From Dehalococcoidia bacterium (GTDB lineage Bacteria; Chloroflexota; Dehalococcoidia; Lucifugimonadales; Lucifugimonadaceae): a DNA stretch of 64,000 nt. The stretch lies in the NCBI GenBank assembly GCA_026421185.1, contig JAPKCH010000005.1, positions 1-64,000 on the forward strand, in the 5' to 3' direction. Positions 13,966 through 16,725 of the stretch are shown piece after piece; the first letter of the stretch is position 1; the number at the start of each line of letters is the position of its first letter. The notes under the pieces were generated by a model. That model worked only from the letters and a program-made list of their open reading frames with translations, was not told the DNA's origin and did not search any database. The position numbers and the translations under genes were made by a program.

Positions 13966-14682
13966 TTACGAACTAGATTTCAGAATTACCAATGCGCGAC
14001 TCGCTGCCTCACGCTCAGCATCAATTTTCCTCGATCCTTCTCCTAAAGCAACAGACCGGGTGTCGATTACAACCTCCATCGTAAAGATTAGATCGCTAAG
14101 TACTCCTGATTCAGATACAAGGCGATAACGGGGAGGCTTGCTGCCATTCGCCTGTAGATACTCTTGCAACAATGATTTCGGATCCTTTTTAGTCTCCGAC
14201 CGGAGCGCTTCATCCACATGTTCACCGAGCCAGCGATTAACAAATTTAGATGCAGATTCATAGTCGCTGTCAACGAATACAGCACCGACTAGCGCTTCGA
14301 ATGTATCCGCTAGATTAGATGAACGATCATCACCACCAGCAGCCGACTCGCCTTTTCCCATAACTAACCACTCGCCTAAACCAATGGTCCGTGCAGCTTT
14401 AGCAAGTGTTTCACGTCGAACGACCTGTGAGCGCCGAACAGTGAGGTCACCTTCGGCTAATTCCGGGGCACTTGAGTACATTCGATCGGCAACTACCATG
14501 CCGACGATCGAATCTCCCAGGAATTCCAATCTTTCGTTGGAAACCGGAGGGATATCAGGGTGTTCATTAACGTATGACTGGTGGGTTAACGCCAGTACAA
14601 GAACAGCCCTATCGTTGAAATTGACACTCAACGCGTTTTCGACTTCTGCGATCTGATATTCATCTAGTGGAGTAATCGGCAA
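13966..14682 (-). CDS. rnc: Ribonuclease III
   Basis: A 238-residue double-strand-specific endoribonuclease for rRNA and mRNA processing. The signature NERLEFLGDS (49-58) carries the catalytic E53 and D57; the second acidic pair is in ADTFEALVGAVF. A C-terminal double-stranded RNA-binding domain starts near residue 165 (PKSLLQEYLQANG) and ends with the RALVILKSS helix. The start is TTG at 14682, six bases after the DsbA-like gene, and ftsY follows. The rnc-ftsY neighbourhood is common in bacteria. Confidence 0.95.
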   Translation of the reverse strand: MPITPLDEYQIAEVENALSVNFNDRAVLVLALTHQSYVNEHPDIPPVSNERLEFLGDSIVGMVVADRMYSSAPELAEGDLTVRRSQVVRRETLAKAARTIGLGEWLVMGKGESAAGGDDRSSNLADTFEALVGAVFVDSDYESASKFVNRWLGEHVDEALRSETKKDPKSLLQEYLQANGSKPPRYRLVSESGVLSDLIFTMEVVIDTRSVALGEGSRKIDAEREAASRALVILKSSS

Positions 14683-14688
14683 GTTATT

Positions 14689-15324
14689 TTAGTCTCGTGC
14701 GTCTCGCGGCCACGGCGGCTGTGGTCGCTTCAATTCTCCAAAGTACTTGCGATCACTCGCAATTCCCATGAAGTCTTTAAAAGCGCTCACCGACTCGTCT
14801 TCAGGCGGGGTGAACATTTTCAGGAATGCCGCTGTGCCGTCATTGAATACGAAAGTAGGAGTTCCGAACACACCGTGTGTGAGTGCTTCTTCATGATCTA
14901 CGCCAATTGTTGTAAGTGACTCTGGGGAGTCGAGGACTGATATAAAACTTTCGATATCAAGATTAGCCGCTTTAGCTATTTCTACCACTGCCTCACGGCT
15001 GCGTACGTCTTCTCGTTCAACGTGCTTGGCGTGGAGAATTTTTTCCATATAGTCGTTGTGAGCAGTGGTTCCTATGTAACGTGCTGCAATACCACCACGA
15101 AGAGGCCAGAGCCCCCGACTGACATATGAGGAATCCTGTTCCCAAGCTTTCCAGTCTTCTCCTTCTTTAGAATTAACTTGTTCAAGCGCGAAACTTCGCC
15201 AATTTATCTCTAGCTCATCCCCGAGTTCGTGCTTAACTCTGCTCAGCCAAATGCCGGCCTGTCGTACCCATGGTCAGGTGTAGTCGATGAAGACATCGAT
15301 CTTGATAGGAGTATTTACTTCCAT
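14689..15324 (-). CDS. DsbA-family thiol oxidoreductase with in-frame TGA at the redox Cys (candidate selenoprotein)
   Basis: Read through one TGA, the frame from ATG 15324 gives a 211-residue DsbA/FrnE-like protein. Residues 9-16 read IDVFIDYT, then the TGA (codon 17, bases 15274-15276), then PWVRQAGIWL. This is exactly where the family has the first Cys of its CPxC redox motif, so the codon most likely inserts selenocysteine, giving UPWV. The second Cys of the motif is Val. The cis-proline loop GTPT is present near residue 140, and a coherent alpha-helical insert lies between. Conserved sequence continues on both sides, so it does not look decayed. If TGA were a stop, only 16 residues would be made; reinitiation at ATG 15048 would give 119 residues without the active site. 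It leads the operon with rnc and ftsY. Confidence 0.75.
15244..15261 (-). promoter_or_regulatory. Possible bacterial SECIS hairpin after the TGA
   Basis: Starting 12 bases after the TGA, CAGGCCG / TGGCTG can fold into six pairs (one G-U) with one bulged G and a GCATT loop. Bacterial SECIS elements lie just downstream of the UGA, with an apical loop about 20 bases away that has G among its first bases; this hairpin fits in place and loop. It is short, and I cannot score it by energy. Confidence 0.4.
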
Positions 15325-15447
15325 AGTTTATTAATTTTCTTTCGCTTATTACCTATGAATTCGCACAAAGTTTAGCAATCACACATCAAAACGTTCGGGC
15401 AAAGATTCCGTTTTTACCCTTACTATTCATTTATCTGTACTAACTTA

Positions 15448-16725
15448 ATGCCAATGCCGAACCTATCCCAACTCTTAACGACGAAGTCTTCACTCGAGTA
15501 CAAACGCGTGTTCGAACTATGCAGGGATATAGCTCTGGAGCTAGATGATGTGATCGGTGTGTACGTTGTCGGAGGCGTAGTACGTGATCTCATTCTTAAT
15601 CGTGAACCCGGCGATATTGACCTTTCAGTGGTCGGTGACGCAAAAGCATTTTCGAAAATTTTGGCGAAACGAATTGATGCATCGGCACCCGTCGAGTCTC
15701 AATTTCTAACTTTCAAAATCACCCCCACCAACATCGCATCGATTTCTGCGATCGATATTGTGAACGCTCGTTCTGAGACTTACGCCGGCCCGGCTGCCCT
15801 TCCGGAAATAACTCCTGGAACTATTGACGATGACCTGAAACGTCGCGATTTGACGATCAATTCGATGGCGATTTCTTTGAATCATTCCGACTGGGGGACT
15901 CTAGTTGACCCCATGAACGGATTTGCCGACACAATGCGTAAGCGCATTAAGGTTCATCACGACGAGAGTTACGTTGTCGATCCAACTCGTATTTTCCGAA
16001 CAGTTCGCTACGCAGTTCGTCTGGGGTATTCGATTGACTCTAGAACTATCGAGCTAATATCTCATTCGTTAGACAACATTGATCGACTCAGCGGTGCTCG
16101 GATACGACACGAGTTCGAGCTAATACTTACCGAGCCAAGACGAGTTGAAATTTTTAGGCAAGCTGAAAAATTCGGCTTGCTTGCAGCCATAAGCCCGGGA
16201 CTACGCCTCAGTGCAAAAGCACTTCAAGTACTAGAGAGCCAAAGCGAAGATGGCAGTATTTCGACAAACATGGCTGATTTGTTAGCAATCACTACGTTTG
16301 GTCTAAATGAAGATGAAGCTAGGCAGATCATTCAACGATTCGACGGACCCGGCAATTGGGGCGAATCTATTACAGGCAACGTAGAACTATCGAAGCTTGT
16401 TTTAGTTTTGGACAAGTCAGATGTAAAGCCAAGTGAAATCAACGAAATTCTTCGACCGATTCCTCTCGCATCAATCCGAGCGTACATCGCAGGAGGGCCA
16501 CCGCTTCCACGACGAGATCGAATGGTCGACTACATCAATAGGATTAGATTTATTGAGCCTGAATTATCCGGGGCCGATCTTATTGACGACGGTATTCCCG
16601 AAGGTCCAGTAATTGGCCAACTGATCAAAATCGTAAGACGCGCTAAATTAGACGGTCAGGTCAGTACAAAACAGGAAGAACTTGAACTTGCGAAGAGCCG
16701 ATTACCGGGCTTCCTAATAGACTAG
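15448..16725 (+). CDS. cca: CCA tRNA nucleotidyltransferase / poly(A) polymerase family
   Basis: A 425-residue class II nucleotidyltransferase. The head domain shows VGGVVRD (41-47) and the metal-binding DID (56-58), then the RRDLTINSMA motif that reads the tRNA end and VDPTRIFRTVRYAVRLG. The C-terminal half is helical. It adds or repairs CCA at tRNA 3' ends. The stop TAG overlaps the stop of the ogg-type gene on the other strand within a shared CTAG (16722-16725). Class II enzymes can be CCA-, CC- or A-adding; which one cannot be told here. Confidence 0.9.
   Translation: MPMPNLSQLLTTKSSLEYKRVFELCRDIALELDDVIGVYVVGGVVRDLILNREPGDIDLSVVGDAKAFSKILAKRIDASAPVESQFLTFKITPTNIASISAIDIVNARSETYAGPAALPEITPGTIDDDLKRRDLTINSMAISLNHSDWGTLVDPMNGFADTMRKRIKVHHDESYVVDPTRIFRTVRYAVRLGYSIDSRTIELISHSLDNIDRLSGARIRHEFELILTEPRRVEIFRQAEKFGLLAAISPGLRLSAKALQVLESQSEDGSISTNMADLLAITTFGLNEDEARQIIQRFDGPGNWGESITGNVELSKLVLVLDKSDVKPSEINEILRPIPLASIRAYIAGGPPLPRRDRMVDYINRIRFIEPELSGADLIDDGIPEGPVIGQLIKIVRRAKLDGQVSTKQEELELAKSRLPGFLID

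Follow-up and report, generated by a model that had tools for sequence, protein, structure and literature searches.

A predicted selenoprotein of the DsbA fold in SAR202 bacteria and related Chloroflexota

A 64,000-nucleotide stretch of a Dehalococcoidia genome (contig JAPKCH010000005.1, positions 1 to 64,000; referred to here as the window) contains a reverse-strand frame with DsbA-like sequence on both sides of one TGA. The TGA stands where the fold has its catalytic residue, which raises the question of whether it ends a broken gene, results from an error, or is translated, and in the latter case as which amino acid. The original prediction proposed a candidate selenoprotein, and the proposal is borne out by TGA at the same codon in relatives, by Cys orthologues and by the selenocysteine (Sec) machinery of the genome. 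Based on these sequence comparisons, we put the probability that the product of this gene, here called dsbA-Sec, is a selenoprotein at about 0.97.

The in-frame TGA and its distribution among orthologues

The two features on which the analysis is centred are the following.

14689..15324, reverse strand: dsbA-Sec gene, defined by its read-through translation, a Pfam DSBA match across the TGA, a TGA codon shared with orthologues and an AlphaFold2 model
15274..15276, reverse strand: in-frame TGA, codon 17, with selenocysteine as the predicted residue; Cys orthologues have their catalytic Cys in this column

The frame runs from 15324 to 14689 and comprises 211 codons, with exactly one in-frame TGA (15276-15274, codon 17); its translation is MEVNTPIKIDVFIDYT-U-PWVRQ...ARD*. 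The active site around the TGA is DYT-U-PWV, at the catalytic position of the DsbA/thioredoxin fold. The Pfam domain DSBA (PF01323) matches residues 9-163 of the read-through protein (E 6.4e-16, 59.1 bits) and so spans codon 17, in agreement with the initial description of an open frame that is DsbA-like on both sides. Under the standard code the only ORF at the locus is 14689-15048, which is the 119-residue fragment that annotation had been expected to report. The earlier count of three genes with TGA as a real stop was also reproduced (3 of 46 main ORFs), and a convincing internal TGA is not seen in any other gene of the window. Both flanks of the codon are under purifying selection (median dN/dS 0.11 upstream and 0.06 downstream, from few pairs with unsaturated dS), and residues before and after it are conserved among orthologues. 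Concerning the start of the gene, a CGAAAG motif lies 15-20 nt upstream of the start codon (window about 15338-15346, reverse strand) and recurs in many orthologues of the same genus; no strong Shine-Dalgarno sequence is found nearer the ATG.

The gene is found in 52 of the 76 genomes of the window's own GTDB family. Base-by-base reading of fifty family orthologues showed TGA at this codon in 40 and TGC or TGT in the other 10, and the flanks DYT/DFT-x-PWV are retained in both groups. The column is therefore Cys in homologues at the same syntenic locus, as the original prediction anticipated; relatives with TGC or TGT, which it had listed as evidence against selenocysteine, are a minority with Cys in exactly this column, and most relatives have TGA. 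Across the order the gene occurs in 174 of 250 genomes, with exactly one TGA in nearly all listed matches. About 40 further order genes were read, most of which have the active-site TGA, while those of genera g36 and g89 have TGT; in total, base-by-base checking gave about 80 related genes with TGA at the same codon. Other Chloroflexota contain both TGA and Cys forms, and in several small-genome genera the orthologues have TGC or TGT. Three residues past Sec/Cys, every one of the 65 Sec rows has Val, as do 30 of the 33 Cys rows. In two SAR202-order genomes (L155 in G138 and L170 in G137) the UPWV gene is duplicated in tandem, and each copy has the TGA.

One TGA copy comes from the isolate Ca. 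Lucifugimonas marina JH1073, whose closed genome (CP046147.1) was sequenced by PacBio (PMC10444878). The window genome is of the same genus and is therefore a member of the marine SAR202 clade. Because many independent genomes, including this closed one, share the TGA, a sequencing error is excluded, and with it the suggestion that TGC or TGT at 15274-15276 had been misread.

The flanking genes are also conserved, and the nearest two are given below.

13966..14682, reverse strand: rnc (RNase III; Pfam RNase III and dsrm), 6 nt downstream of dsbA-Sec
15448..16725, forward strand: gene of the polyA polymerase/CCA-adding enzyme type (Pfam PolyA_pol), divergent neighbour and conserved synteny marker

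In Sec and Cys genomes the order is helicase, OGG, CCA-type enzyme, dsbA, rnc, ftsY and two membrane proteins; since it is identical in both, the Sec and Cys forms are orthologous. The dsbA-rnc order is the same in 11 relatives, Sec and Cys alike. The two genes are probably co-transcribed; rnc is part of the conserved neighbourhood and not of dsbA-Sec function, and this strictly conserved set (helicase, OGG, CCA enzyme, RNase III, FtsY) gives no functional clue. Searches with the dsbA-Sec protein gave no match in phage collections and one distant match in plasmid collections, on a Deinococcus plasmid. In a tree built with the Sec column removed, the starred branches force at least five changes between the Sec and Cys states, and parsimony needs nine.

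Selenocysteine machinery and RNA structure after the TGA

Profile searches found selB, selA and selD in the window's genome, all above cut-off, and SelB has its winged-helix domains. The selD frame, which adjoins a contig end, carries an in-frame TGA of its own (LATCAG-U-AGKL). The tRNA-Sec gene (selC) is present as its first 54 bases (5' half), ending at the edge of contig C35, and was located by synteny with a closed relative: the window's contig stops right behind nuoF (82-1803), nuoG and a thioredoxin gene lie on contig C35 ahead of the partial tRNA-Sec, and in the closed isolate genome (G041) tRNA-Sec comes behind nuoG and the thioredoxin gene, so that the fragment lies where relatives would place it. 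Four relatives have a complete tRNA-Sec with UCA anticodon, and in three it lies 16-18 kb downstream of dsbA-Sec (L094:1497-1594; L092, L093). A genome without selABCD had been named as grounds for rejecting the selenoprotein; selA, selB and selD are all there, and selC is represented by the contig-end fragment. The first match to Rfam RF01852, initially taken as tRNA-Sec, was rejected when ARAGORN showed it to be tRNA-Ser(GCU). The tRNA-Ser(GCU) of these genomes scores 50-53 bits against a curated tRNA-Sec threshold of 47, so annotation by cut-off alone yields a false selC.

SelB is present in every TGA-form genome of the family. Among TGA-form genomes of the order, G152 (83% complete, 610 contigs) has no SelB match and G202 (73% complete) has only an elongation-factor match below cut-off. 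A rule equating the Cys form with loss of SelB does not hold: SelB is lost in genus g5 (Cys form), but g10 is mixed, and g36 and most of g89 (Cys form) keep it, together in four of five genomes. A switch to Cys thus needs no loss of the machinery. Genera g10, g36 and g89 (L078-L087, L165-L169) have small genomes in which SelB is mostly kept and the dsbA-Sec orthologue has Cys.

Bacterial SECIS elements vary widely (PMC13188914). Under the bSECIS model, the apical loop has 3-9 nt, starts 16-37 nt after the UGA and carries G as its first or second base, and the energy is -7.5 or lower (PMC13188914). The corresponding features of the window gene are as follows.

15229..15273, reverse strand: bacterial SECIS-like region directly after the TGA, assessed by fold stability against a synonymous-codon null and by the bSECIS model
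15261-15244, reverse strand: candidate hairpin CAGGCC-GGCAUUU-GGCUG, whose apical loop GGCAUUU starts 18 nt after the UGA; the exact hairpin is uncertain

Because the Cys genomes are low in G+C, which confounds a direct comparison of hairpins between Sec and Cys genes, the two groups were assessed by the synonymous-codon null and by the published bSECIS criteria. The bSECIS-type element expected after the TGA is found at family level: 90% of 83 Sec genes satisfy the model, compared with 50% for control positions taken from these genes and 42% for the 33 Cys orthologues. The criterion is permissive, and the hairpin of the window gene is not unique under it. The 48 nt after the TGA of Sec genes are more stable than the synonymous-codon null (mean z -0.85; other windows -0.11; Wilcoxon p 8e-8, which is optimistic as the sequences are related); in Cys orthologues the extra stability in the same test is not significant (p 0.14). 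The hairpin of the window gene is not unusual against shuffles (z=0.66, 75-nt fold). No single SECIS structure common to all 40 family sequences was found (-2.1 kcal/mol), and clade-wise hairpins exist. Overall, RNA structure after the TGA favours Sec decoding, as supporting and not decisive evidence.

These results bear directly on the two readings in which the codon is not selenocysteine. A pseudogene or truncated protein, with TGA as a stop or an error, agrees with the short ORF that standard calling yields from 15048; it is at odds with the recurrence of the same TGA across many independent genomes and genera, the closed PacBio isolate among them, and with strong purifying selection and conserved residues on both sides, and its probability is close to nil. 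Hardly more credible is a UGA read as Cys or another residue by an opal-suppressor tRNA. Such a code would also fit the interchange of TGA with TGC/TGT at the column and the rarity of TGA as a stop, but the genome has Sec machinery and a selD with TGA at its own Sec position, the TGA falls on a single redox position and not on ordinary Cys codons, RNA structure is enriched after it in TGA forms only, and the loci scanned for tRNAs contain no opal-suppressor tRNA. Selenocysteine at codon 17 is thus the reading carried forward, in which UGA would be decoded by SelB and tRNA-Sec, the genes of this machinery being present, and an RNA hairpin just downstream may assist.

Protein fold, active site and proposed chemistry

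The AlphaFold2 model has a DsbA fold (pLDDT 93.8, pTM 0.90). Its best solved structural match is DR_2335 (Z 23.7, rmsd 2.2 over 194 residues), which is also the best profile match to solved structures (hmmsearch E 1.1e-30). Further structural neighbours are Rv2466c (Z 18.2), kappa GST (Z 17.3) and HCCA isomerase (Z 15.4), and FrnE also follows; the profile matches Rv2466c across its full length (E 1.7e-12). Helix 1 has Sec17 at its N-terminal end, within a DxxUPxV site, and the FGTPT loop (153-157), the usual cis-Pro loop of the thioredoxin fold, is conserved. No signal sequence is present, strand 1 beginning at residue 7 of the model, and on this basis the protein should be cytosolic. No NCBIfam model reaches cut-off for it, so wherever it is annotated it is probably shown as a truncated fragment.

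The window protein contains no Cys anywhere; of 65 Sec forms, 51 likewise lack Cys at every position apart from that of Sec. It is very probable, as judged from sequence, that Sec is the sole active-site chalcogen. The partner position is indeed Val and the site holds a single Sec, as first described; this is not a loss specific to the gene, however, since the site is common to the whole family. The assignment to DsbA/FrnE homologues likewise needs a correction: the DsbA fold with its catalytic column is confirmed, but the site is not the CPWC of FrnE, and the nearest solved relative is DR_2335.

Given the Val partner and the absence of Cys, the protein would be a monoselenol enzyme needing an external thiol. 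Most likely, the target that the selenolate of Sec17 would attack in the cytosol is a substrate disulfide, a mixed disulfide or a peroxide, and the resulting Se-S or Se-OH intermediate would be resolved by an external thiol, either thioredoxin or a small thiol. For such monoselenol reductase chemistry, which fold and active site suggest, we see about even chances. A less favoured possibility is a selenoprotein acting like kappa-class GST, HCCA isomerase or the mycothiol-dependent Rv2466c, with the selenolate directed at a small electrophile or with a small-thiol cofactor, and not as a disulfide or peroxide reductase. The structural neighbours named above, the full-length Rv2466c profile match and the lack of a resolving Cys are in its favour; the nearest relative, though, is the single-Cys DR_2335, for which no function is reported (PMC8945050), and a catalytic Sec/Cys retained in D-x-x-[UC]-P suits thiol chemistry. 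Returning to the reductase, we would only tentatively extend it to a Cys-free, cytosolic, DsbA-fold monoselenol enzyme that is near-universal in SAR202 and related Chloroflexota, has chemistry undescribed for the fold (single Sec, external resolving partner) and has repeatedly turned to Cys in streamlined lineages.

A second DsbA-type protein with an in-frame TGA is encoded on contig C8 of the same genome (L002:1438-2148, reverse strand). It is membrane-anchored, has the site DFQ-U-PVC (Sec and a resolving Cys) and scores 121.9 bits against the Rcas_1661 (seleno)lipoprotein model, below the cut-off of 190. A VKOR gene (PF07884; L002:917-1438, reverse strand) directly adjoins it, and together the two probably represent a selenium version of the disulfide-forming DsbA-VKOR pair.

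Comparison with known systems

This kind of selenoprotein is already catalogued, as compared by motif and domain. 'DsbA 3' of the Global Ocean Sampling (Zhang & Gladyshev 2008) is a pfam01323 family with the motif UxxV, comprising 5 Sec and 72 Cys sequences (PMC2398784). It shares Pfam family, motif and ocean origin with dsbA-Sec, the likeness being one of motif and domain only; it was published from reads, with no organism in the text and no mention of Chloroflexi or SAR202 (PMC2398784). A 2026 review lists a 'DsbA-like protein form 2' (PF01323, DxxUP, example MDP6049977.1; PMC13188914, citing Peng et al. 2016, PMC5029168). Its DxxUP matches DYTUP exactly and the Pfam family is the same, again a likeness of motif and domain; it is labelled as crotonase/enoyl-CoA hydratase-associated, and neither SAR202 nor Chloroflexota is brought up as context in the main texts (PMC13188914, PMC5029168). 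Both UxxV and DxxUP fit exactly. Four things were not found in the literature searched and are new here: that the gene belongs to SAR202 and other Chloroflexota, that it is nearly fixed in SAR202, that Sec has repeatedly given way to Cys, and that the architecture is Cys-free and DR_2335-like. No paper in that literature mentions both SAR202 and selenoproteins. SAR202 bacteria are ubiquitous and abundant in the ocean, and the gene is Sec-encoded in nearly all of the 174 order genomes carrying it. Sec and Cys orthologues in one fixed locus form a natural series for testing why lineages keep or drop selenocysteine, and the cultured Ca. Lucifugimonas marina makes the prediction directly testable.

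Among characterised relatives, two identities were considered and ruled out. Classical periplasmic DsbA has CxxC and an export signal, whereas the dsbA-Sec protein has UPWV, no Cys and no signal before strand 1. FrnE has a CPWC/CPFC active site and, in many members, an additional C-terminal CxxxxC pair (PMC8945050). It is a cytosolic DsbA-family oxidoreductase, as the dsbA-Sec protein is predicted to be, but UPWV is not a CPWC-type site and the CxxxxC pair is absent from the dsbA-Sec protein. The Mycobacterium tuberculosis protein Rv2466c (PDB 4zil, 5xur) belongs to the same DsbA-fold subgroup, is matched by the profile over its full length and has no Sec. Rv2466c is an actinobacterial Cys enzyme and depends on mycothiol. 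The closest solved relative, DR_2335 of Deinococcus radiodurans, is predicted to be cytoplasmic and has the DsbA fold with one conserved Cys; its function is unreported (PMC8945050). DR_2335 (PDB 7dk9; C24S mutant 7dka) differs in having Cys instead of Sec and Ala instead of Val at the partner position, with about 21% identity, but it shares with the dsbA-Sec protein one catalytic chalcogen at the same position (FDFLCPYA) and the same fold over the full length.
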